A stretch of DNA of 21,591 nucleotides from the IMG/VR virus record IMGVR_UViG_3300046000_003437, positions 1 to 21,591 of that record; one strand, 5' to 3'. Numbering within the stretch: the stretch's first letter is position 1; the number at the start of each line of letters is the position of its first letter. A program made the translations under genes and the position numbers. Source of the stretch: a virus. The notes under the pieces were generated by a model. The model was not told the origin of the DNA and did not search any database. It saw only the letters and a list, made by a program, of their open reading frames with translations. Below are positions 1,884 through 19,957 of this stretch, piece by piece.

Positions 1884-4181
1884 ATGAAAAAATTAATGAA
1901 TGTAAAGAAAAGAAGCGGCGAAGTTGAAAAATTCGATGCTGACAAAATCAATAAAGTTTTAGCTTGGGCTTGCGAGGGTATTAGCAATACTTCTTTTGAG
2001 GAAGTTGGCATCAATGCAAACCTATCTTTCTTTGACGGAATATCTTCCAAAGATGTTCACAATACTTTGATCGAATCTGCCGCTAATCTTATTTCCGAGG
2101 AAAAGCCTCAGTATCAATACGTTGCTTCTCGTTTGCAAAACTATCAGCTTCGTAAAGAAGTTTGGGGCGGCAGAAACGCGCCAAAACTTATTGATTTCGT
2201 AAAGGAAAACATTAATTCGGGCATTTATGATGCTGAGATTCTTAAGTGGTACGATGAAAGAGAGTTCCATAAGATCGACGAGTATTTAAAACATGACCGT
2301 GATTTTTCGTTCACTTATGCTGGTATTAAACAGTTGTGCGAGAAATACTTAGTTCAAAACCGCACTACGAAGAAAATCTACGAAACACCGCAATTTGCTT
2401 ATATGCTGATTGCTATGACTCTGTTTAAGAATTATAGCTCAAACAGACTCCAGTACGTTAAACGTGCCTACAATTACTTTAGCCAACACAAGATCAATCT
2501 TCCTACGCCAATTATGGCGGGCGTTCGCACAACTTTGAAGTCTTACGCTTCGTGCGCTTTGTTCACTGTTGACGATACATTAGATTCGATTTTTGGCAAT
2601 AATACCGCTGTTGGCCTAGCTACTGCCAACCGATATGGCATTGGCATGAATATCAGCCGTATTCGCGCCGTAAACAGCCCAGTTAAAGGCGGCATGGTCA
2701 GTCATACTGGCCCAATTCCGTTCTTGAAGATGTTTGAGTCCACTGTTAAGTCATGCCATCAAAACGGCATCCGTGGCGGTTCTGCAACGGTTAACGTTGC
2801 TTGGTTCCATCACGACATTGAAGACATTATGGTTCTCAAGAACAATGCTGGTACTGATGATAACCGTGTTCGCAAACTTGATTACTGCATTGGCTTTGAT
2901 CGCTTGTTCTATGATCGCGCCATGTCTAATAAGACTGTAACTCTTTTCTCTTATCATGAAGTTCCTGAACTTTGGAATAACTTTGGTATGGAAGGTTTCA
3001 AAGAACTTTACGAAGCCGCCGAAAAGAACAATAAAATTAAATTTAAAAAGGTAGTTAATGCCAGAGATCTTCTTTTCCTGTTCTCTAAAGAGCGCGTGGA
3101 AACTGGCCGCATTTATTTAATGAATGTTGACCATGCTAACTCTCATGGTTCTTGGACTGAACAAGTTGATACTGCTAACCTCTGCTTGGAAGTTAACCAT
3201 CCTTTAACTGCAATCAAAGACGTTAATGATAAAGACGGCGAAATCGGCGTCTGCATCCTTTCTGCCGTTAATCTTCTGGAAATCTCGGAAGATGAAATGG
3301 AATCAGTATGCGATGTTATCGTTCGTATGCTTGAAGAATTGATCGACCATCAAAACTACTTTGTTCCTGCTGCCGAAAACTTTGCCAAGAAACGTCGCAG
3401 TCTTGGTGTTGGTGTAACCAATTTGGCCGCTTGGTTAGCTAAACGCGAAATGAAGTATTTTGATAAGCAAGCTCCTAATAAGGTAGCCGCGCTTATGGAA
3501 TCTGTTAGTTATAATCTTATCAAAGCCTCTGTTGAAGTCGCTAAAGAAAAAGGTAAGTGCGAGAAGTTCCATCTGACCAAATTCTCTCAAGGCATCTTGC
3601 CGATTGATACTTACTGCAAGAACGTCGATGAGTTCGTGACGGAGAAACTTCATTTCGATTGGGAAGGTCTTCGTAAAGAAATCGCCCAACACGGTATGCG
3701 TCACAGTACTTTGACGGCGATTATGCCTGTTGAATCTAGCTCCGTAATTCAGTCTTCAACAAATGGTATTGAGCCTCCTCGTTCTCTTATTTCGTTCAAG
3801 CGTTCTAAGTCTGGAGTTATTTCGGTTGTCGTGCCAAATATTAAAGAGCATAAACAGCACTACACAATCGCTTCTGAAATGCCAAGCAATGACGGTTATC
3901 TTAAAGTCGCCGCCGCAATTCAAAAGTTCGTTGATATGAGTATGTCAACTAACCTGTATTATAATACAGCAGCTTATCCAAACAAAGTTCCGCCGCAAAC
4001 AGAACTTGTTCGTGATATTCTCCTCGCTTACAAATACGGCATCAAAAATCTTTATTACACAAACACATTCGATGGTGACACACAAACTGTGCTTGGTTCA
4101 GCCACCGAAGTTAAAAAAGTAGAGCCAGAAACACAACCAGAAGAAGTAGATAACTGCTCCAGTGGAGCTTGCACCCTATAA
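1884..4181 (+). CDS. nrdA: Class Ia ribonucleoside-diphosphate reductase, large (alpha) subunit
   Basis: The protein reduces ribonucleoside diphosphates to deoxyribonucleotides with NrdB. At 765 aa it is full length (E. coli NrdA is 761). An N-terminal ATP-cone (residues about 5-95, KKRSGEVEKFDADKINKVL) indicates dATP/ATP activity control. Catalytic features line up with E. coli: C224 (YASCALF) and C457 (GVCILSAVNL) as the redox pair, N432/C434/E436 in ANLCLEV as the radical site, the tyrosine pair Y724-Y725 in NLYYTNTFDG for radical transfer, and a C-terminal relay pair C758/C763 in CSSGACTL (E. coli ends CESGACKI). No intein or intron interrupts the frame. ATG 1896 is a second in-frame start, but 1884 gives the normal N-terminus. 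nrdB follows after 4 nt, so the two are co-transcribed. Confidence 0.98.
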   Translation: MKKLMNVKKRSGEVEKFDADKINKVLAWACEGISNTSFEEVGINANLSFFDGISSKDVHNTLIESAANLISEEKPQYQYVASRLQNYQLRKEVWGGRNAPKLIDFVKENINSGIYDAEILKWYDEREFHKIDEYLKHDRDFSFTYAGIKQLCEKYLVQNRTTKKIYETPQFAYMLIAMTLFKNYSSNRLQYVKRAYNYFSQHKINLPTPIMAGVRTTLKSYASCALFTVDDTLDSIFGNNTAVGLATANRYGIGMNISRIRAVNSPVKGGMVSHTGPIPFLKMFESTVKSCHQNGIRGGSATVNVAWFHHDIEDIMVLKNNAGTDDNRVRKLDYCIGFDRLFYDRAMSNKTVTLFSYHEVPELWNNFGMEGFKELYEAAEKNNKIKFKKVVNARDLLFLFSKERVETGRIYLMNVDHANSHGSWTEQVDTANLCLEVNHPLTAIKDVNDKDGEIGVCILSAVNLLEISEDEMESVCDVIVRMLEELIDHQNYFVPAAENFAKKRRSLGVGVTNLAAWLAKREMKYFDKQAPNKVAALMESVSYNLIKASVEVAKEKGKCEKFHLTKFSQGILPIDTYCKNVDEFVTEKLHFDWEGLRKEIAQHGMRHSTLTAIMPVESSSVIQSSTNGIEPPRSLISFKRSKSGVISVVVPNIKEHKQHYTIASEMPSNDGYLKVAAAIQKFVDMSMSTNLYYNTAAYPNKVPPQTELVRDILLAYKYGIKNLYYTNTFDGDTQTVLGSATEVKKVEPETQPEEVDNCSSGACTL

Positions 4182-4185
4182 AAAA

Positions 4186-5241
4186 ATGAAAACAGTATTA
4201 AACACCGTAAACACAGATTCTCTTAAACAACCGATCTTCCTTGGCGAAGATTTAGCTATTCAGCGTTATGACCGCTTGAAGTATCCAAAGTTCTATGATC
4301 TATATGATCAACAGATGAACTTCTTCTGGCGTCCACAAGAAATCAATCTGACTAAAGATTCTGCTGACTATAAGAATTTGTCTCCAGAAGAACGCTTTGT
4401 CTTCGATAGCAACCTCCGTTTTCAAACGATGACGGACTCTATGCTTTCTCGCAGCATCAATTCTCTCGCTGATTATGTCAGCAATCCAGAACTTGAAATC
4501 TGCATGAATGTATGGTCTTTCTTTGAAACTGTTCACAGCAACAGCTATACTTATATTCTTCAAAACGTTCATCCAGACGCGACCAAGTTCTTTGACTCTA
4601 TCTTAGAAGATAAGGAGATTGTTAAGCGCGCAGAAGCTATTTCTAGCCGCTACGACGCTCTCTTGAATACCAAGAGCGAAGACCCAAAGCAACAGATTTT
4701 TGACGCTCTGTTGGCTACTCAAATCACCGAAGGTCTTACTTTCTATGTTTCGTTTGCTTGCTCGTTTTATTTCGGTTATCGGGGCAAGATGGAAGGGAAC
4801 GCTAAGATCATCAACTTGATCTCTAGAGATGAAAATCTCCACGTCGCTATTACTCAAAATATCTTTAAGATTCTCCGTGATAACCCGAAAGAAGGCTTTC
4901 AAGAAATCGTAAAGAAGAATGAAGATCGCGTTTACGAAGCATATCGTATGGCAGTAGATGCTGAAAAAGAATGGGCCGACTATCTTTTCTCTCGCGGGAA
5001 CTTGATTGGACTCACATCTGATTCGCTCAAGAACTATGTTGAATGGCTCGCTGACAGCCGCTTAACTTCTATGGGTTACAAGAAAATCTACAACGTTAAA
5101 AGCAATCCTCTTTCTGGATGGCTGGATAGCTTCTACGACAGCAAGAAGATTCAAGTAGCTCCACAAGAAACAGAAATCTCGTCCTACGTTAAAGGCGTAG
5201 ATAACAAGATGGACGAATCTGTGTTCCAGATGAATCTTTAA
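4186..5241 (+). CDS. nrdB: Class Ia ribonucleoside-diphosphate reductase, small (beta) subunit
   Basis: This 351-aa protein houses the di-iron/tyrosyl-radical cofactor that activates NrdA. ATG 4186 is preferred over the in-frame GTG at 4162, which lies inside nrdA; a GGAG at 4164-4167 is rather far upstream. Ligands match E. coli NrdB: D84 (TMTDS), E114 and H117 (FFETVHSNSY), radical tyrosine Y121 (SYTYI), E182 (TEGLTF), E216 and H219 (SRDENLH). W48 (FFWRPQE) of the radical path is also present. The C-terminal tail (MDESVFQMNL) is acidic then hydrophobic, as expected for docking to NrdA. Keeping the tyrosine argues for a normal Fe-Tyr class Ia enzyme. Its stop codon overlaps that of the convergent tail gene at 5238-5241. 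Confidence 0.97.
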   Translation: MKTVLNTVNTDSLKQPIFLGEDLAIQRYDRLKYPKFYDLYDQQMNFFWRPQEINLTKDSADYKNLSPEERFVFDSNLRFQTMTDSMLSRSINSLADYVSNPELEICMNVWSFFETVHSNSYTYILQNVHPDATKFFDSILEDKEIVKRAEAISSRYDALLNTKSEDPKQQIFDALLATQITEGLTFYVSFACSFYFGYRGKMEGNAKIINLISRDENLHVAITQNIFKILRDNPKEGFQEIVKKNEDRVYEAYRMAVDAEKEWADYLFSRGNLIGLTSDSLKNYVEWLADSRLTSMGYKKIYNVKSNPLSGWLDSFYDSKKIQVAPQETEISSYVKGVDNKMDESVFQMNL

Positions 5242-10926: not shown

Positions 10927-11499
10927 TTATTGCGCTGTTATTGCAAATGTTCTAATGTTATTTGTTGCGTTTCCACCAGTGGCGGTTAAAACCACCATAG
11001 CGTTGTCTGGCGAAGTTGCGTTTACATAAATAGAATGACTTCCAACTGCCAGTTTAGATGTAATTTCTGCTGGAATTGTGAAACTAAATACACCATTTGA
11101 CTGTACCTGAGCCGCTGTAGCTTCTACTTGGTAAGCTGGATATGTCGAAGTTGTTCTAGATACATCTATTTGTGCCACTATTTTAATAGCTGGTGTTATT
11201 GTGTTATTGGTTCCGTCCGATAGTAAATATGTCGCAGTACCGCTAATTGTTATTGCCTCACCTTTTACATAGCTTGCGCTAGCTGTACCTGAGCTGTTGT
11301 ATAAAGCGTTAAATATTTTAGATGTTCCAGCGCCAGTTCCAATTGAACTAGCGGTATAATTTAATCTAACTACTGCTTTAGGAGTGTAATCGACCATCTT
11401 GCGTTTAGTTAAAAAATTTATCAACGACAATACGCTAGAATAATTTCTAGGTTTAATTTTTAACGCTTTATCTTCTTGGGATGTTCTTATGATAGGCAT
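10927..11499 (-). CDS. Small beta-rich (Ig-like) tail-tip-associated protein
   Basis: This protein lies between the two parts of gpJ. Three starts are possible: 11538 (overlaps the upstream gene by 29 nt, 203 aa), 11499 (10 nt after the upstream stop, 190 aa) and 11397 (156 aa, MVDYTPKAVVRLNYTA). I give 11499 because other spacers in this unit are very short, but 11397 removes a basic N-terminal stretch and gives a cleaner structural protein. The last ~155 residues are Thr/Ser/Ala-rich with alternating strands (EAITISGTATYLLSDG, GVFSFTIPAEITSKL, GSHSIYVNATSPDNAMVVL), like one or two Ig-like beta sandwiches. It could be a tail-tip accessory or an adhesin-like subunit. No catalytic motif is visible. 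Confidence 0.7.
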   Translation of the reverse strand: MPIIRTSQEDKALKIKPRNYSSVLSLINFLTKRKMVDYTPKAVVRLNYTASSIGTGAGTSKIFNALYNSSGTASASYVKGEAITISGTATYLLSDGTNNTITPAIKIVAQIDVSRTTSTYPAYQVEATAAQVQSNGVFSFTIPAEITSKLAVGSHSIYVNATSPDNAMVVLTATGGNATNNIRTFAITAQ

Positions 11500-11509
11500 T
11501 GGTATAATC

Positions 11510-12403
11510 TTAATCAGCCGAGATATTTTCCGCAGCATTGTTAAAAGTTTTGGTTTCGCTAGTTGGAGTAGTTGATGCGTTCATCGCCACAGTTACTCCG
11601 TTGTTTCTATTTGCCAAAGGACTAGAAGAGTTTGTTGTAACGGTAGAAGTTGAAGGTGCTTGAGTATAACTTGTGCTTCCATTTCCAATCATATAAGCCC
11701 AAGGGCTTTGAACTAATCCTGAAATTGGAATTCGTTTTGAAGAATAAACAGAGCTTCCTTCTACTCCCCATTTAAAGATCAAATCTAAACTTGATGATTT
11801 ACTCATACCCATTTCTCCAGCTAGCCCTGCTCCTTTTCCTTGGTCAACTGTATCCATCAAAGACTCTACAATTAAACTTACTTTTAGTTTTTTAACGTCT
11901 CTGTTTTTAATTTTATGAATAAATAAATAAGGTTCTTGAGTTTGACTTGGCCAACCTTCTGAATTTATAGCCCATTTTGTAAAGTTTCTTGCTTCTCCTC
12001 CGTTTGGATTCGCTCTTATATCTTGTTCAGTAGTTATTGGTCCAAGTAATTTAAAATTAACTGGTTTTGCGATATGAACATTTTTAAAATTAACCAATGG
12101 TTTTTGATTTTCGGTGCCAAAATTAATCTCCATCATTACATTTCTGTAATTGTATTCGCCTTTATAATTCATTACGGCATTTCCGTTAAGATATATACCT
12201 TTCAACATATCCAAGCCATAAACCTTTTTACCAAACTGATCAACTAGCCCATAAATTGGCCCTTCACAAATCAAATCTACACATTCGTATATAGAAATTG
12301 ATTTTTTTAAGTTTTGATTAGAAGGAGGTGGGACAAGAGCAGGTACAGGAGGTTTACTGCCTCCAGCTCCTTTTATAAATCTTAATGGATTTAATATTTT
12401 CAT
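11510..12403 (-). CDS. gpJ-like tail-tip hub protein, N-terminal part
   Basis: This 297-aa protein matches the beginning of lambda-type gpJ. A basic, Pro-rich start (1-35) is followed by SISIYECVDLICEGPIYGLVD, equivalent to the SVIDAISEGPIEG motif. GIYLNGNAVMNYKGEYNYRNV matches the VLLNSTPVLDTEG strand region, and DVKKLKVSLIVESL corresponds to NIDRLRFTFGVQAL. SLDLIFKWGVEG...KRIPISG matches the strands just before gpJ's PRPFNIRMRRMTPDS segment, which here sits in the 10913 gene. Beyond about residue 238 it is a low-complexity Ser/Thr/Asn tail. The gene starts 2 nt beyond the upstream stop. A divided hub implies the two products assemble together in the virion. Confidence 0.8.
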   Translation of the reverse strand: MKILNPLRFIKGAGGSKPPVPALVPPPSNQNLKKSISIYECVDLICEGPIYGLVDQFGKKVYGLDMLKGIYLNGNAVMNYKGEYNYRNVMMEINFGTENQKPLVNFKNVHIAKPVNFKLLGPITTEQDIRANPNGGEARNFTKWAINSEGWPSQTQEPYLFIHKIKNRDVKKLKVSLIVESLMDTVDQGKGAGLAGEMGMSKSSSLDLIFKWGVEGSSVYSSKRIPISGLVQSPWAYMIGNGSTSYTQAPSTSTVTTNSSSPLANRNNGVTVAMNASTTPTSETKTFNNAAENISAD

Positions 12404-12404
12404 C

Positions 12405-15400
12405 TTATTTCTCTTGTTTTATAGCTGGATCATTATAAGATAACGTTGGATCTATTGCTCCTCTTGCAGATGTATTTGCAAGTGTTTCGTTAAATGTTAT
12501 AGAAATTTTTACTGGCGCTGATTTTAATTCCAAAGCTCCTATTTTTGCAGAGCATTGCCATTGAGAATTATATACAGAAAGTCCTGATTTTGAAGCTTGT
12601 GGTCTTTGAGATACAAACCGAACCAACCGATTAGAAGTAGCGGAAGTTTGTTGCGCGTAACTTAATAAATCTTCAAAAACAAAACCATCAGATCCAGTTA
12701 GAGCGCCTGCTGTTTTAAAGAATACGGTGCCAACCGAAGAAGATGGAGCGCCAATAGCTGTCCAATTTGTTGTACCAGAAGTAATAATCTTGTATTTTCT
12801 TCCGACTTTCATAGCTGACGCTGCAATGGGTAGAGCCTTACTTCTAAACTTCGTTGATTTAGAAACATTCAAATCATTTAAAACAGAATAAAACAATTTA
12901 TCCTTTGCAATTAATGCGTAAGAAGAATAAGATCCGCCGTCCAATTTTGATTTGCTATACAAACTAATACCATCCGAACCAATACCGTCTTGAAATCTTG
13001 CGTACAAGCGGTGATAACCAAGAGTAAGAGTAATTTCTTGAGTTGTCGAATTTAAATCAGTTATTGCTGGAGGCGGAACTAACTGCATACCAAATCCATG
13101 ATTTCCGTAAAAAGAACTTGCTAGCTGACCATCAATATAAAGATCGGCAGCGTCATCTGAGTCTATTTTAAATGAATATTTATTGACTGGATATATTTTC
13201 CCATTTCCTAAAGAAGATGGAACAGTTGCATTTTTAGTAAATGTCATTCCCAATTCTGGCATTATGGCCGCTCCTCCAACTCCAGTTAATCCTAATTCAG
13301 CCCATTGTCCAGTATCTCCTATCTTTATGATTTCGTAAGTAATTCCTTGTTGAGCATCATAAGAATTGATAACTTTTGTTTTGTCTATCTCTACATACAA
13401 GTAGCCGTAAAATTCCATTGCGTAATTATCTAAAGAATTTCTATCAAGAGTTGAACTTGTTATCGTTCTTAGGTTAGTCATGTTTAATTCTTGATTATAA
13501 ACGCCTTGAACAGTATATGCTGGGAAATTATCAATTAGCGAATCAAAATCCGTTTTATTTGCTGGAGAAGTGGTTGGCCCTGCGACCTCTAACCAAGCAG
13601 AAGCCCAATCGCCCCCTAAAGCTGCTAAATTTGGGATAACTCCAGTATTAGTTTTTAGTGCTTTGAACGTTGACTGAAGAGTTGGTGGTGTTATTTCTGC
13701 CCAAAAAGAAGTGTTAACCGCATTATCTACTATTGGAAACGGTTGAGCCTCTCTTAAAGCGTTTGCTGTTGTGGCAACTGTGTAAGTTTCTGTTGAAATT
13801 GCGCCAGTTATCACGAACTTAAATGTATCTGTTGTTACTTCTGTAATCGTTCTTGTTCCACTTGGATAAACTGTTCCAGTTAAGCCTTCAATAATAACAA
13901 CGTTGCCTACGCTTAATCCGTGAGATGAGCTTGTTACTGTTACAGTAGCTAAATTTCTTGATGCGGCGGTGATTTTTTTAGGAGAATATCCTGATTGAGT
14001 CGCTACAAAATAACGTGTTAAAATAGCTTTTGGATAATTTGTTACCGTATATGTTTCTGTAGAGGTTCCGCTAACTAAATCATAAGTAAATGTATTTGAC
14101 GTTGCAGTTGTTTTTATTGTTTTTAATCCGTTAGCGTTTGTAGTTCCAGTTAACCCAGATATATCTACAACGTTTCCAACAGTAAAACCATGATCTGTTT
14201 TCGTTGTAATCGTGACGGTTAAAGTTGATCTCGCCGCCGCTGTTATATCACTGGTTTGAAGATATTTTGTAATTTCTTTTCGTACAAATTTATAAGAAGA
14301 GTCGAATGTTGGAAAATTTAAATTAGCGAATTCTGTTGGACCCCATGTTACTAAAGTGTTCGTCGGATATTGTACAAAATAATTAGCAGCAGTGTTTATT
14401 GAGTTTGTCGATTTAGTTTTTAGTTCAAATTTGTTTGGATCATATGATCTATAAGCTAAACCATTTTGAAACGAGAACGCAGTTTCTATTGCGACAGCTC
14501 CTTTCTTTGTTGCCGACAACTCTTTCCAATCGTAAACAATATCAGGATTATATGTAGATAAATCAGGATTAGATACAGTTTCTCCGTTTGTTGTGACTAC
14601 AACTTCAACTGGATCTGTAGCAACTTTTCCCGCTGAACTTGTAATAACATTTATATAAGAATTTAATATATTGATGTTTGAGAAAGTTTCGCTTTCAGAA
14701 TCATTTGCTGATTGATTAGTAGAGAATCCATCCGCATTTAATCCGTAAGGAGATGGAGCTTCATCTTCTGAAATTAATTCGATATAATCATTGATTGGTT
14801 TATCAGCAGGAGTCATTAACTGTTTAATATCTGTGGCTAATGGATAGTGGTTTGTGGCTGCACTAATTTGAGATGAGCCTATTAACAATCTTCCGTATCC
14901 AACAGGAACAGCTTGTCCTTGTGATACGTTGCTAGGCTTGTTACCGAAAAGATAAGATTTGCCGCCAGCAGCTACTTCTTGATTAAAGTCTGGTTTGGGC
15001 TGAGGGAATAAAAGAGACATAGCTCCTTGAATGGCTAAACTAACGCCTACACTGGCCACAACAGATCCTAAAGCGGTCAACGACCCAACCGCAGCTCCAG
15101 CTGTAGCTGCCGCACTTCCAGCTGTTACGGATAATCCCATTGCCCCAGCTAAAGCAGGAGCAGCAGCGCCAGCAGTTATAGCTACAAGGGCTACGCCAGC
15201 GGCTAACATCAATATACCTCCTGAATTACCTCCAGCTCCCCAAACAACAGGAACGATGTGCATTTCTTTTGGAGCTTTTTGAACATCTAACTCTTTAGGA
15301 TTGCTTAATACTTCATCGTCTATAACAATTCTATATAATACTCCTTTGATAGCTAATTTTTTAACAGTATTAGCGAAAGTTTTTTTATTAGCATTAATAG

Positions 15401-15491
15401 CCGAAAATACTTCTTTTGGAGAACTAATGTTTAATTTAAAACATTCTCCAAATAAATTACGCAACTCTCCATGTAAATATACGTTAGTCAT
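12405..15491 (-). CDS. gpI-like tail assembly protein, greatly enlarged (1028 aa)
   Basis: Residues 1-82 form a beta-grasp-like domain (VYLHGELRNLFG...) as in lambda gpI. A Gly/Ala-rich hydrophobic stretch (about 90-162) follows, then LFGNKPSNVSQGQAVPVGYGRLLIGS (181-206), matching the conserved gpI motif NTTAQGNPVPVLYGR. Lambda gpI ends near there; this protein continues for 800 residues. The extension has two tandem beta repeats (416-484 and 507-573), a PA14-like domain (about 688-850) with a short module nested in it (718-756), and a second copy of that module (897-940, YKIITSGTTNWTAIGA). The extension is probably exposed and may bind glycans. It starts with an 8-nt overlap with the JAMM gene and ends 1 nt before the next gene. 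Confidence 0.85.
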   Translation of the reverse strand: MTNVYLHGELRNLFGECFKLNISSPKEVFSAINANKKTFANTVKKLAIKGVLYRIVIDDEVLSNPKELDVQKAPKEMHIVPVVWGAGGNSGGILMLAAGVALVAITAGAAAPALAGAMGLSVTAGSAAATAGAAVGSLTALGSVVASVGVSLAIQGAMSLLFPQPKPDFNQEVAAGGKSYLFGNKPSNVSQGQAVPVGYGRLLIGSSQISAATNHYPLATDIKQLMTPADKPINDYIELISEDEAPSPYGLNADGFSTNQSANDSESETFSNINILNSYINVITSSAGKVATDPVEVVVTTNGETVSNPDLSTYNPDIVYDWKELSATKKGAVAIETAFSFQNGLAYRSYDPNKFELKTKSTNSINTAANYFVQYPTNTLVTWGPTEFANLNFPTFDSSYKFVRKEITKYLQTSDITAAARSTLTVTITTKTDHGFTVGNVVDISGLTGTTNANGLKTIKTTATSNTFTYDLVSGTSTETYTVTNYPKAILTRYFVATQSGYSPKKITAASRNLATVTVTSSSHGLSVGNVVIIEGLTGTVYPSGTRTITEVTTDTFKFVITGAISTETYTVATTANALREAQPFPIVDNAVNTSFWAEITPPTLQSTFKALKTNTGVIPNLAALGGDWASAWLEVAGPTTSPANKTDFDSLIDNFPAYTVQGVYNQELNMTNLRTITSSTLDRNSLDNYAMEFYGYLYVEIDKTKVINSYDAQQGITYEIIKIGDTGQWAELGLTGVGGAAIMPELGMTFTKNATVPSSLGNGKIYPVNKYSFKIDSDDAADLYIDGQLASSFYGNHGFGMQLVPPPAITDLNSTTQEITLTLGYHRLYARFQDGIGSDGISLYSKSKLDGGSYSSYALIAKDKLFYSVLNDLNVSKSTKFRSKALPIAASAMKVGRKYKIITSGTTNWTAIGAPSSSVGTVFFKTAGALTGSDGFVFEDLLSYAQQTSATSNRLVRFVSQRPQASKSGLSVYNSQWQCSAKIGALELKSAPVKISITFNETLANTSARGAIDPTLSYNDPAIKQEK
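12942..13430 (-). other. PA14-like domain in the gpI-like protein, with a nested module
   Basis: Residues about 688-850. The strands EFYGYLYVEI, YSFKIDSDDAADLYIDGQ and GYHRLYARFQDGIGSDGISL follow the PA14 pattern and closely match the gpL-like protein of this window (DPDDAAELFIDGD, GYHRVLIRWYNQGGGGALTI). Between the first two strands lies an extra ~60-residue segment with an ITYEIIKIGDTGQWAELG motif. Confidence 0.6.
13773..14246 (-). repeat. Two tandem ~70-aa beta repeats within the gpI-like gene
   Basis: Residues 416-484 and 507-573 of the gpI-like protein are diverged copies. Both begin ITAA(A/S)R, continue HGFTVGNVVDISGLTGT / HGLSVGNVVIIEGLTGT, and end STETYTV. They are separated by about 22 residues. 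The pattern (HGxSVGxxVxIxGLTG...TFxF) is a common phage structural-protein repeat sometimes labelled FCCH-like. Only protein-level repetition is obvious. Confidence 0.75.
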
Positions 15492-15846
15492 AGTATTTTT
15501 TGAGTATCTCTATATACTCTTTGTTTACATGAGGAACCTTTGGAATGATAAGATTAAATTTTTCTGTTTGTTTGCTATAAATTAAATAAGGAATACATGA
15601 ATTTTCGCAATTAAATCGGTCAAACTTTGATTCTTCTTCTTCTGTCTTTGGATGAGTATGGTAAATCGCAGCAAGCTTTCCGCTTTTGATTTGCTTGATA
15701 ACTTCTAAAGGATGAATCTCAAATACGTCGTTTTCGTACACAGCGATATTTTTTGCTGGTTCAGTTTTGATTTCTCCGTTTTCAATACGCACGAAACCGC
15801 AAACCTCAACACTTGATGTAGCTGCGTGATCAATAATAGATTTCAT
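15484..15846 (-). CDS. JAMM/MPN-type metallopeptidase, gpK N-terminal-domain-like tail-tip protein
   Basis: This is a 120-aa Prok-JAB family protein. The complete JAMM zinc site is visible: E14 (SSVEVCGF), H63 and H65 (IYHTHP), S73 and D76, with the canonical HxH-x7-S-x2-D spacing. ATG 15846 follows the gpL stop (15848-15850) by 1 nt and gives the normal domain start. An upstream ATG at 15918 is in frame but would overlap gpL by 71 nt and add non-homologous residues. Lambda gpK joins this domain to a C-terminal NlpC/P60 peptidoglycan hydrolase; here only the JAMM half is present. Its position between gpL-like and gpI-like genes agrees with the L-K-I-J order. It may process a tail-tip partner such as the beta-grasp domain of gpI (inference). 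Confidence 0.88.
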   Translation of the reverse strand: MKSIIDHAATSSVEVCGFVRIENGEIKTEPAKNIAVYENDVFEIHPLEVIKQIKSGKLAAIYHTHPKTEEEESKFDRFNCENSCIPYLIYSKQTEKFNLIIPKVPHVNKEYIEILKKYYD

Positions 15847-15847
15847 G

Positions 15848-17365
15848 TTATTGTTGAGACATACCGTACTCTTCTGTACCGGGGAATCCGCCAAAAGGTA
15901 GTCCATCTTGATTTCCAAATCTCAACTTGCAGCCTTTAATACTCTTGGAACACTGATCAGGAATCCAATATTCTTTATTGAAATAAGGATCTTTTGTACT
16001 GGTTGATGTATGGTTTTTGGCGCAAACAAACACTTTATGAATCGGCTCCCAATTCGGAACGGCGTTAATATCAGATTTAGTTACTTTGATATTATGATTT
16101 TCACGATATACGTAATCGCCAACTTTATAATTGTAGTTACTAATCCATTTATCTTTGTTCACTAATAGACCAAAACTTGATTCATTAATTCCGATATATT
16201 TAGAGATTGCGGAATCTGTTCCAAATCTTTGAGAGCTTGTTAAAGTTGAAGCTTCATCTACATCATAATAGTATCTAGAAACAGGAACAGCTGCCCATGA
16301 TGTAACCGCTGGCGGTTTATAGTAAATAGTTAAAGCTCCACCACCTCCTTGATTATACCATCTAATTAAAACTCTATGATAACCTTCTTTTAAGAAAATA
16401 GTTCCTTCTTCTTGTGGAGCAGTTGTATTTTGTGGGCCACTACCATAATCTCCAGCAATTACATCGCCATCAATAAACAATTCAGCAGCATCGTCAGGAT
16501 CAACTCCAAGAGAATAACTTCCAGCTTGTCCTTTATCTACTTTAAAGTATCCGAGAAATTCGGTGAATACATACGTATCATTAGTTACGGTTACAGAACT
16601 AACTACAGATTCGGAAGAAAATGTGGCGGCTGCAATTTTAGAAGTAAACTCAGAAGAACTTACTGGCGAAGCTGGACTTCCAGTAGTTGTATAAACTCTT
16701 TTTAAAAGACCAGCTCTAAAATCAGTTGCTACAGAAAGCTTTAAATCATTTTCATCAGCAACAGGCGCACCCATGTAACGACATCCATTTCCTCTGTAAT
16801 GAAAAGAACAATAACGAGACATTACAATTCTTTTTGGGAAATTTACTCCATCAAGTTCAAGCGGCGAAGCTAACTCAAATTCTACAACAGCTTTGCTTTC
16901 GCTAGACCGTCTTAAAATAAAGAATACTTGATCTTCTAAGCCAGCTTTTGGATCTGCGCTACCATAAGGATTAGCTCCAAGAGGTTTAGCCGCTGTTGGC
17001 GAAAAGTTTTTATCGTCTAGAAATTTAACAAAAGTACGCTTTCTGATTACTTTTGCGCCAACTAAGTTGCTATATCTTCTGATTAAGTTAGATACGAAAA
17101 AATCTTGGTTAGAAACTGCTAATTTCGGTCTTGGAAGCGAGCCATCACCTTTGCTCTCAAATCCAGAGCTTTGAATCGGAAACGGCGCATACTCTTCGCC
17201 TTGCCAATAAACAGAACCTTCTATTCCATTAGTGCCGCCATGAATGTAAAGCTTTTCGTCAGGAAAGTTAACGTAATCATAGTAAATGACAAAAAACTCT
17301 AACAGCGCGGATGGTTCCAGCGAGAATAGAGCAGTATTGACTTTATGATTAGAATCCCTTGACAT
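15848..17365 (-). CDS. gpL-like tail-tip Fe-S protein with inserted PA14-like and aromatic modules
   Basis: This 505-aa protein corresponds to lambda gpL (about 230 aa), a [4Fe-4S] tail-tip protein linking the tail tube to gpI/gpJ. Residues 1-200 include the beta-rich gpL core (FELASPLELDGVNFPKRIV). The cluster ligands are likely C186 and C195 (SRYCSFHYRGNGCRYMG) with C472 and C479 (QCSKSIKGC), followed by the conserved end GLPFGGFPG. The Cys pairs, normally a few dozen residues apart, are separated by about 277 residues. This insert holds a PA14-like domain (about 264-352) and an aromatic, possibly carbohydrate-binding module (about 405-468). The gene opens the minus-strand unit. AAAGG-rich sequence precedes ATG 17365 and may act as the ribosome-binding site. 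Confidence 0.87.
   Translation of the reverse strand: MSRDSNHKVNTALFSLEPSALLEFFVIYYDYVNFPDEKLYIHGGTNGIEGSVYWQGEEYAPFPIQSSGFESKGDGSLPRPKLAVSNQDFFVSNLIRRYSNLVGAKVIRKRTFVKFLDDKNFSPTAAKPLGANPYGSADPKAGLEDQVFFILRRSSESKAVVEFELASPLELDGVNFPKRIVMSRYCSFHYRGNGCRYMGAPVADENDLKLSVATDFRAGLLKRVYTTTGSPASPVSSSEFTSKIAAATFSSESVVSSVTVTNDTYVFTEFLGYFKVDKGQAGSYSLGVDPDDAAELFIDGDVIAGDYGSGPQNTTAPQEEGTIFLKEGYHRVLIRWYNQGGGGALTIYYKPPAVTSWAAVPVSRYYYDVDEASTLTSSQRFGTDSAISKYIGINESSFGLLVNKDKWISNYNYKVGDYVYRENHNIKVTKSDINAVPNWEPIHKVFVCAKNHTSTSTKDPYFNKEYWIPDQCSKSIKGCKLRFGNQDGLPFGGFPGTEEYGMSQQ
16310..16576 (-). other. PA14-like domain inserted in the gpL-like protein
   Basis: Residues about 264-352. The strands FTEFLGYFKV, YSLGVDPDDAAELFIDGD, EGYHRVLIRWYNQGGGGALT and IYYKPP follow the PA14 pattern (DDxxxLxIDG then GxHxxxIxxxxxGG). 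PA14 domains commonly bind glycans. The insertion lies between the two cysteine pairs of the Fe-S domain. Confidence 0.65.
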
Positions 17366-17897: not shown

Positions 17898-18284
17898 ATG
17901 ATTATGAACAAAATTAAACTATTCATCGTTTCGTTAACTCTAGCTCTTTTGGCTACCAAAGCTCACGCTGGTATCCCATTTTATCTGGAGTCCAAGAATA
18001 ACACCTCCGCTACTAACTGGAATACCCAAACATATTCCCATGAAGCTCGCGTTGGCGTAGCTTATCCTTGGGTTTATGCCGAAGTTGGCAAAGGTCGTCA
18101 ATACGTTAATTCCTTTAACAAAGGTCAAAACATGGACACTTTTGAAGTTGGTTCTAAGATCACGATTAAGAAGCTTGATGTTAAGCTCAAGTTTGAAGGC
18201 AGCAATGGAAAGCGGTTGAATTCTAAATTACCGCAAAAATTCCTTGACACAGGCGGCGAAGTCCGCATTAGATATAACTTCTAA
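17898..18284 (+). CDS. Secreted, outer-membrane-like beta-strand protein
   Basis: This 128-aa protein has a clear Sec signal peptide: a basic start (MNKIK), a hydrophobic core (LFIVSLTLALLATK) and an AHA-G cleavage site near residue 24. ATG 17898 and ATG 17904 are both possible. The mature ~104 residues alternate polar and hydrophobic or aromatic residues (HEARVGVAYPWVYAEVG, FEVGSKITIKKLDVKLKFEG, TGGEVRIRYNF) and end in Phe, a signal typical of outer-membrane beta barrels. It is too small for a classic eight-strand barrel, so an oligomeric or miniature barrel, or a periplasmic protein, is also possible. A phage protein made in the cell and sent to the outer membrane could mask or block the receptor against superinfection (inference). 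Its stop overlaps the next start (TAATG). Confidence 0.85.
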   Translation: MIMNKIKLFIVSLTLALLATKAHAGIPFYLESKNNTSATNWNTQTYSHEARVGVAYPWVYAEVGKGRQYVNSFNKGQNMDTFEVGSKITIKKLDVKLKFEGSNGKRLNSKLPQKFLDTGGEVRIRYNF

Positions 18285-18709
18285 TGAAGTTTGAGCGTCT
18301 CGTAAACCTAGCAAAAAATCTAATTATCTATGACGACACTGGAATCCGGTGTCGTCATTTTGCTTTTATACTGCACAAGAATCGTGTCGTTTCCATTGGG
18401 AGAAACTCAAACAAGTCTCACCCGATAAACAGAAAGTACGGTTACTTTGAAGGAAGCGGCATCCATGCCGAAGCGTGCGCCGTCATTAAATCTGGCAAGG
18501 TCGATCACTCGAAAAATACTTTAGTTACATTTCGTATTGACAGAAACGAAAAAATAGCTATGGGTAAACCTTGCAAACACTGCCAAAAGCTTTTGGGCGA
18601 TGTAATTTTCAAAGAAATTTATTACTCAAACGAACAAGGCGAATTCACAAAATTTAATGAAAATCTTAATCATCGAAAGCACAAGCAAGAGAAAGCCGCT
18701 GTCAAATGA
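18284..18709 (+). CDS. Zinc-dependent cytidine/deoxycytidylate-deaminase-fold protein
   Basis: This 141-aa protein has the deaminase zinc signature: H61-A-E63 (GIHAEACAVI), then P96-C97-x2-C100 (GKPCKHCQKLL), with the expected strands HFAFILHKNRVVSIGRN before and TLVTFRIDRN between. The pattern TFRI...GKPCKHC...IYYSNEQGEF differs from the classic dCMP deaminase TLYxTxxPCxxC. I therefore assign the superfamily only; the substrate could be a nucleotide, a nucleoside or nucleic acid. Near the reductase genes and upstream of a glycosyltransferase, a role in nucleotide metabolism or DNA base modification is plausible. The Lys/His-rich C-terminus (about 124-141) is encoded in the 53 nt shared with the next gene. 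ATG 18284 overlaps the preceding stop. Confidence 0.85.
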   Translation: MKFERLVNLAKNLIIYDDTGIRCRHFAFILHKNRVVSIGRNSNKSHPINRKYGYFEGSGIHAEACAVIKSGKVDHSKNTLVTFRIDRNEKIAMGKPCKHCQKLLGDVIFKEIYYSNEQGEFTKFNENLNHRKHKQEKAAVK

Positions 18710-19646
18710 GTTTGACGATACATCAATCGTTCATTGCCGTAACAGCTTGATTCTGGCCGAGGCACTCGGCGCAGACCTATTGGATGGCGAATACAAATTG
18801 CCACAAATCTTAGCCAACCAGTACGACGTAATCATTTGCGCGTATGCGTCACCGTATATGCCTCATGTTCCTTACCGCGAGATTCTGACGAAGAATCCAA
18901 ACGCGAGATACGTTTGGCTCGTTAACGATCATGACATTGAAGACAATCAGCTTCTTCGCTATGGCGTAATCAATCATGGATTAAAGTATGATATGATCTG
19001 CAATAATCCTCGTAGCGGTTATCGCCACTGGATTCTCAACAAGAACATTGCGGGCAAAAAGCTGAACGACTTTATCGTTGAGTGGCTCACTGTGAATCTC
19101 AATTCTTTGATTATGGATACGCGCAATCCTACAAATCCTGCTGATAAAGACGGTATCATTTACTACGGCACTTACCGCAAGCATCGCCAAGTTTCTTTTG
19201 AGAAGTTCTTAACAGAAGGCGTTTCTCTTTCTTGTTCACCAAAGAACGTCAAGAAATTCCAAGCGATCAACTGCAAATGTGCTTATGTTGAAAAGTTATC
19301 TTGGAAGAAGAACGAAGAGGATTTACGCAAATATAAATACTCAATCTACATTGAAGATTTGCACACTCACAACAACTATGCGTTCTTGGCTAATCGTTTT
19401 TACGAAGCTTTAATGAGCGACGTTGTAATGCTGTTTGACGCTGGATGCGAAAACACAATCAAGAACTGCGGATATAATTTATCTCCAAATGTATTAGTTG
19501 ACGAAAAAAGATTGTCAAAAGGCTTGACAACTTATGTTTCTTCTCTCAATTACGAGGAAGAGCTAAAGCATCAAAAGCAATTCGTTGCTCAAGCTTTCGC
19601 CGAAAAATCTGACGCTATTCAAAAAATTAAAAACTTTTTAAAATGA
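18657..19646 (+). CDS. T4 beta-glucosyltransferase-like GT-B glycosyltransferase
   Basis: This 329-aa protein (T4 BGT is 351) begins with a Rossmann strand, MKILIIESTS, supporting ATG 18657 although it lies inside the deaminase gene. By memory alignment to T4 BGT, D91 in YVWLVNDHDIED fits catalytic Asp100 (YYLFTDIRL). IIYYGTYRKHRQ (R174, R177) fits VIYGGSFRSGQR (R191, R195). NNYAFLANRFYEALMSDVVML (R247, E250) fits NDNFITLRVWETMASDAVML (R269, E272), which binds UDP. A UDP-sugar-dependent inverting transferase is therefore likely. T4 BGT glucosylates 5-hydroxymethylcytosine in phage DNA to block restriction; here the acceptor is unknown. The gene ends with an ATGA overlap with the next gene. 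Confidence 0.8.
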   Translation: MKILIIESTSKRKPLSNEFDDTSIVHCRNSLILAEALGADLLDGEYKLPQILANQYDVIICAYASPYMPHVPYREILTKNPNARYVWLVNDHDIEDNQLLRYGVINHGLKYDMICNNPRSGYRHWILNKNIAGKKLNDFIVEWLTVNLNSLIMDTRNPTNPADKDGIIYYGTYRKHRQVSFEKFLTEGVSLSCSPKNVKKFQAINCKCAYVEKLSWKKNEEDLRKYKYSIYIEDLHTHNNYAFLANRFYEALMSDVVMLFDAGCENTIKNCGYNLSPNVLVDEKRLSKGLTTYVSSLNYEEELKHQKQFVAQAFAEKSDAIQKIKNFLK

Positions 19647-19957
19647 AATACGAAATCACATTTGCTTTGACTGAAAAGTCGCGCAAGCATCTTAACATTC
19701 AGGAGCTTACCCCTTACAAAGCTTCGATCATTTCCACAAATGATCTCGACGATAAAAAGCTTATGCTTCTTATCACACTTTCTGAAGAAGGTCTTCCAAT
19801 CGAAACTCCAAGAAGATTTGAAATGGAAGTGAAGAACATTGGCTTTGGGCTTGAAAAGTTGCGAGTTCTCGGTTGGCTCGCAACACAAGATTATGTTTGC
19901 GACTGCATGATTACACTTCACTCTTTTCAGCAACCTGATTCTGGATGGAAAAGCTAA
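19643..19957 (+). CDS. Hypothetical protein (104 aa)
   Basis: The gene overlaps the glycosyltransferase stop by 4 nt (ATGA), implying coupled translation. The product is a small soluble alpha/beta protein with strands MKYEITFALT, KLMLLITLSEEG and RRFEMEVKNIGFG, and a later C-D-C-M segment. No family is recognised. Co-expression with the glycosyltransferase is the only functional hint. Confidence 0.75.
   Translation: MKYEITFALTEKSRKHLNIQELTPYKASIISTNDLDDKKLMLLITLSEEGLPIETPRRFEMEVKNIGFGLEKLRVLGWLATQDYVCDCMITLHSFQQPDSGWKS

Follow-up and report, generated by a model that had tools for sequence, protein, structure and literature searches.

Glucosylation of DNA in the manner of phage T4 proceeds in two steps, hydroxymethylation of a nucleotide followed by addition of the sugar. 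In the T4 beta-glucosyltransferase (BGT), whose family PF09198 we take to be GT63, D100 is presumably the catalytic aspartate and R191, R195, R269 and E272 the donor site, and the title of one PDB entry names a D100A mutant of this enzyme. A phage DNA glycosyltransferase can also be found alone. Solitary homologues of TAGT (beta-glucosyl-HMC-alpha-glucosyltransferase, PF20691) are reported without an alpha-GT or beta-GT in many genomes (PMC13216743), so that the decoupling of a glycosyltransferase has a precedent, although in a different family from the one considered here.

The DNA that we analysed, hereafter the window, is a whole viral record of 21,591 bases and covers only a fragment of its genome; it carries a BGT-like gene. 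The terminase used to place the phage had only distant relatives, with 23-27% identity among the 15 matches listed. The features to which the text refers are the following.

1884-4181, plus strand: NrdA, ribonucleotide reductase large subunit (similarity search)
4162-5241, plus strand: small subunit of ribonucleotide reductase, probable (named by eye from the sequence and from the position)
18284-18709, plus strand: dCMP/cytidine deaminase-like protein, 141 aa (marginal match to PF00383, E 1.1e-5, 25.6 bits with a cut-off of 25)
18657-19646, plus strand: BGT-like GT-B glycosyltransferase, 329 aa (ORF list, profile, model and fold search)
18843-18860, plus strand: YASPYM (Y63-M68), a loop conserved in the N-terminal half, with Y63 and Y67 invariant in 44/44 members
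18924-18935, plus strand: N90-D93 (NDHD), D91 falling on T4 D100 by MAFFT, with the hhalign register one off
19002-19037, plus strand: N116-L127 (NNPRSGYRHWIL), kept by the main family and absent or different in S13, Ci1, L123 and L124
19161-19187, plus strand: YYGTYRKHR, putative donor-site motif with R174 and R177, aligned to T4 R191 and R195
19395-19406, plus strand: R247-x-x-E250 (RFYE), putative nucleotide-sugar RxxE pair, aligned to T4 R269 and E272
19643-19957, plus strand: next ORF, 104 aa, its start sharing 4 bases with the transferase stop

Two other products of the window were recorded. A small protein at 17898-18284 resembles Phage_OMP, a cyanophage beta barrel of outer-membrane type (E 8.4e-6, with 26.5 bits for a cut-off of 27), and a 220-aa protein at 20825-21487 matches PHROG 3704, which bears a ferredoxin label (E 4.2e-45), with no match in Pfam. 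The ORF at 19643-19957 had zero Pfam or PHROG matches.

Searched as a single sequence, the window transferase had no match in Pfam at E up to 5 and nothing below 0.06 in the PDB. Its PHROG matches (phosphoheptose isomerase, E 0.01; thioredoxin, 0.07) were taken as chance, and a single PADLOC match at 0.057 among 10 members of the family was judged likewise. In hhalign, a profile of 21 family sequences matched a profile of six BGT sequences over residues 161-329 with a probability of 96.5 and an E of 9.6e-10, which is the value for a single comparison, and a profile of 44 family sequences gave 96.0 and 4.6e-9. Against single sequences, the smaller profile reached 4e-5 for T4 BGT, 2e-5 for the BGT of phage VFW and 0.0076 for the diverged Planchet enzyme; T4 AGT, the DNA alpha-glucosyltransferase of that phage (PF11440), stood at 0.17, two other phage glycosyltransferases at 0.2 and 0.73, and three unrelated proteins at 0.09-0.56. 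With the larger profile, T4 BGT, VFW and Planchet were found at 0.0011, 1e-4 and 0.0038, and all the rest at 0.09-0.38. The similarity to T4 BGT, as judged from these profiles, is thus above chance, and the match is clear for the C-terminal half. T4 AGT (E 0.17 and 0.30 as a single sequence with the two profiles) remained within the range of the unrelated controls. With the S13 protein as query, proteins annotated as beta-glucosyltransferases appeared at E values from 7e-3 to 1, which is weak taken alone.

The predicted structure agrees with the profiles. A model built from 44 aligned members reached a pLDDT of 90.7 and a pTM of 0.89, and a prediction from the single sequence (pLDDT 32.3) was discarded. 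In a Foldseek search of the PDB, entries of T4 BGT took ranks 1-5 and 7, the first five with E of 1.2e-8 to 1.1e-6 and TM of 0.64-0.70. VIA-align placed BGT 1qkj at Z 21.9, with an rmsd of 3.0 over 300 residues, then AGT 1xv5 at 19.6 and SenB at 16.3. T4 AGT, the second-best fold, has no profile similarity to the family. The best match in a viral structure library was an uncultured phage protein labelled 'Glycosyl transferases group 1' (E 5.9e-19, 24% identity). According to the model, the nearest solved relative of this GT-B enzyme is T4 BGT, with the fold shared over the whole length.

In three MAFFT modes applied to 53 sequences, D91, R174, R177, R247 and E250 align with T4 D100, R191, R195, R269 and E272. 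The last four residues of the family are invariant in 44/44 members, and the position of D91 is Asp in 42 and Glu in two of them. Glutamate replaces D91 in L123, L124, S13 and Ci1, and S13 and Ci1 keep all four of the donor-site Arg/Glu residues. A contrary result came from the full-length hhalign paths, which pair T4 D100 with H92, one residue off; this offset falls in the low-confidence N-terminal half. The alignments thus support the predicted donor-site residues and the probable catalytic acid. The sequence-only reading had claimed a BGT-like enzyme and named these five residues, proposing Foldseek as a check, and these two points held in profile, model and alignment, except for the hhalign register at D100.

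What sets the family apart from BGT is its N-terminal half. The 167 positions of PF09198 correspond to the N-terminal half of T4 BGT. With E values as high as 10 allowed, this model matched 0/10 family records, whereas it matched all three controls, T4, VFW and Planchet; it was also absent from a Pfam search of 10 members at E up to 5. The mismatch suggests that the acceptor-side sequence of BGT was not carried over. Mean identity among eight diverged members was 50.5% in the N-terminal half versus 40.6% in the C-terminal half (28 pairs, the N-terminal half being higher in 21), and the corresponding values for the BGT set were 40.4 and 40.9 (15 pairs). Taken together, the failure of PF09198 and the conservation of this half point to a donor half that is BGT-like and an acceptor half that is constrained and the family's own, with its own loops YASPYM and NNPRSGYRHWIL. 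By analogy with the BGT fold, the YASPYM loop would lie on the acceptor side. Since S13, Ci1, L123 and L124 do not have the N-terminal segment typical of the family, acceptors may vary among its members.

In the viral collection, the window protein used as query found 65 loci, a profile query gave the best 80 of 152 loci, many of them identical to the former, and two diverged members found 24 and 2; altogether 118 distinct transferase loci were used for the comparison of neighbours. Among 50,697 named phage records, the only relatives at the sensitivity used were five records from the Cronobacter phages S13 and LPCS28 and the Citrobacter phage Ci1, all annotated as hypothetical proteins, which cover 67% of the query at about 26% identity (E 7e-16 to 1e-15). 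A scan of genome contigs added relatives in two MAG contigs, whose binning labels name a beta proteobacterium and a cyanobacterium. In a limited literature collection, no title or shown abstract describes this transferase family.

The deaminase-like gene overlaps the start of the transferase gene by 53 bases, and in the window the deaminase, the transferase and the following small ORF overlap in series. The transferase follows in 53/56 deaminase loci, and the three other deaminase contigs stop 1, 12 and 77 bases past the deaminase match; the spacing in relatives runs from overlap up to 289 bases. A deaminase match stands beside the transferase in 77/118 loci, only in relatives of at least 67% identity. 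L048, at 67%, has no adjacent deaminase, and among the remaining 40 there are contigs that begin too near the transferase to judge. The deaminase was therefore rejected as a general partner. At least 5000 phage records have an NrdA-like match. Because the deaminase match is marginal and NrdA is widespread, neither of them marks hypermodification, and the earlier suggestion that deaminase and ribonucleotide reductase together form the signature of such a pathway did not survive.

In S13, uvsY and uvsW enclose the transferase gene, each separated from it by a single hypothetical gene. Elsewhere outside the lineage of the window, 10 neighbouring genes were picked by hand, seven of which had Pfam matches. 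DUF1376 is encoded near the transferase in L062 and L052, together with a weak DUF968/YbcO match in L062; RusA occurs in L116, and DNA polymerase A and an Enc34 single-stranded DNA-binding protein in L048. Immediately downstream of the transferase in the 44 kb contig L109 (9104-9916) there is an ArdC-like anti-restriction gene (PF08401, E 2e-10), whose product also has a marginal Peptidase_M78 match. In L124 the transferase is found between a ParB-like ORF (by eye, with no Pfam match) and terminase genes (by eye). The genes upstream in the window, on the opposite strand, look tail-like by eye, and those downstream in L101 resemble tail fibres, also by eye.

As the window is only a fragment, genome-wide checks were run on relatives. 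The search for PF00303, the thymidylate-synthase family, covered S13, Ci1 and a choice by hand of 54 contigs out of the family's 118, for the most part longer ones; many of these records are fragments. One match (G031) was found in the first 35 contigs, and five in 24 further records, namely the controls T4, VFW and Planchet together with S13 and Ci1; thus, 3/56 family records have a member, and the T4 dCMP hydroxymethylase was detected as positive control. Whether the substrate is dUMP or dCMP is reported to depend on the residue that corresponds to E. coli N177 (PMC8670742). S13, Ci1 and G031 have Asn here, the dUMP type; T4 gp42 has Asp, as do VFW and Planchet, which are Enterococcus phages with true BGTs. 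The dCMP hydroxymethylase that the sequence-only reading proposed to look for was not found, with 0/56 family records, many of them fragments, carrying an Asp-type gene, a further difference from T4. C5 DNA methyltransferase was found in 0/17 records, with 10/14 control genomes positive. The TET-like gene that the sequence-only reading named along with the hydroxymethylase was likewise not seen (Tet_JBP, 0/32 records), a zero that shows little because no control was positive.

Some of these genomes showed further genes. In G031, a complete thymidylate synthase ORF lies in 11033-16177 (L070, L071), about 1 kb from a second, stop-interrupted match to the C-terminal part of the same enzyme, and a nearby ORF on the opposite strand resembles a GIY-YIG homing endonuclease by eye. 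The large phage contig G030 (L131-L137) has many genes for sugars and transfer reactions and encodes a GDP-mannose 4,6-dehydratase, Glycos_transf_1 and Glyco_transf_9 matches and a sulfotransferase, as well as an FkbM methyltransferase, a cytidylyltransferase-like protein and UvdE.

Two carriers appear to be complete. G034 (33,675 bases) and G053 (34,884 bases) each have an exact end repeat of 123 bases, and the two repeats differ from one another, which fits circular assemblies and not a common terminal repeat; thus, we read both genomes as complete. The records G030 (127 kb), G036 (108 kb), G047, G051 and G052 have no end repeat. Neither G034 nor G053 matched PF00303, PF02511, PF12851, PF00145 or PF07659. 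G034 is P22-like. Of the 54 ORFs predicted in it, 42 were scanned against Pfam, all but the transferase, a pair of long ORFs resembling tail fibres and nine others that were short or doubtful. The 14 families returned include structural proteins (portal, terminase, coat and others), recombination proteins, a peptidase, ASCH and domains of unknown function, and no known base-modification enzyme; G053 was checked for the named families only. Moreover, in a comparison of 17 records from nine lineages, the transferase was the sole BLAST cluster (at 1e-4) present in all nine, with two clusters reaching four lineages and none reaching five to eight; the lineages were assigned by hand and several of the records are fragments.

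According to these data, the best reading is a stand-alone BGT-type enzyme, probably directed at a nucleic acid, whose acceptor is something other than phage-made 5-hydroxymethylcytosine. A rival, which we consider somewhat unlikely, is that the same enzyme glycosylates a host or phage component other than DNA, such as a protein, a tRNA, an envelope sugar or a small molecule, in host takeover, counter-defence or superinfection exclusion. The failure to find an Asp-type gene in 56 family records, two of them apparently complete genomes, agrees with such a role, as do an N-terminal half that falls outside the BGT Pfam model, a GT-B fold that is common to enzymes with many acceptors, and the weak matches that 3/10 members have to Glyco_trans_1_2, a general family (E 2.2e-4 at best). 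However, both T4 DNA glucosyltransferases outrank all other folds among the VIA-align matches listed, genes of DNA metabolism are neighbours in several unrelated phages, and the strong conservation of the N-terminal half speaks against host surface targets, which change fast.

A classical pathway with a hidden first step, in which a diverged enzyme such as a changed ThyX or an oxygenase makes 5-hydroxymethylcytosine or 5-hydroxymethyluracil for glucosylation as in T4, seems to us quite improbable. It would account for the presence of all five BGT residues, and candidates do exist: ThyX (PF02511) in 5/40 records, all contigs of at least 66 kb; weak, sub-cut-off matches to DUF1599 (Nmad1, in Pfam the nucleotide modification associated domain 1) in 4/17 records; and an oxygenase of the family 2OG-FeII_Oxy_5 in G030. 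In the T4-like phages S13 and Ci1, the sole PF00303 protein has Met at the position of E. coli His147, beside the catalytic Cys, and is thus not a fully canonical thymidylate synthase; the Tet_JBP search, moreover, had no working control. Nevertheless, no such gene is common to all carriers, ThyX was not found in 35/40 records, including both circular genomes, and the C5 methyltransferase search was negative in all 17 records. A decayed or structural, non-catalytic protein might be suspected from the Glu at the position of D91 in L123, L124, S13 and Ci1, and is very hard to reconcile with the donor-site residues kept in every member of the alignment, and in S13 and Ci1, or with the purifying selection on the gene. 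In comparisons with four close relatives (L005, L011, L022 and L012) the dN/dS was 0.043-0.072, and it was 0.021 between two other members of the family (L038 and L040); dS was saturated for the more distant L026 and L027, for which no ratio is given.

We prefer, with a probability of roughly 0.47, a stand-alone BGT-type enzyme that acts on a nucleic acid without hydroxymethylation by the phage. In its favor are the ranking of BGT among the folds, the BGT residues, the profile match, the Asp-type gene not found in 56 family records, the two apparently complete genomes with no match to the named families, the lone cluster shared by nine lineages, the neighbours from DNA metabolism and the conserved N-terminal half. 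In this stand-alone enzyme, the C-terminal half would bind an activated nucleotide sugar, D91 would act as the base on an acceptor nucleophile that the conserved N-terminal half holds, and the sugar would be transferred with inversion. The acceptor would most likely be a nucleic acid, the phage's own DNA in the first place, carrying a group made by no known phage hydroxymethylase, and a single gene could thereby protect against host nucleases. A more specific form of this idea, in which the sugar is placed on phage DNA at a nucleophile of a host-present or canonical base, with no hydroxymethylation beforehand, by a single mobile anti-restriction gene that passes between unrelated phages, is unlikely in our view. 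Some points count against the preferred reading. A shared fold alone does not imply a shared acceptor, and the neighbours are not always genes of DNA metabolism, as the tail-like genes of the window and L101 illustrate. Furthermore, a GT-B enzyme requires a nucleophile, and normal bases are poor ones.

The sequence-only interpretation is therefore retained in part. The BGT-like fold, the donor-site residues and the probable catalytic acid are supported, and glycosylation of the phage DNA by a T4-like pathway has no support since its first step was not found in the relatives (Asp-type hydroxymethylase 0/56); the part that the evidence favors is the proviso that neither the base nor the sugar need be that of T4. 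A family with the BGT fold, distributed in at least nine phage lineages, apparently skips hydroxymethylation, even in apparently complete genomes of 34 kb. The consequence would be either a new chemistry of DNA modification or a new target for an enzyme of the BGT fold.
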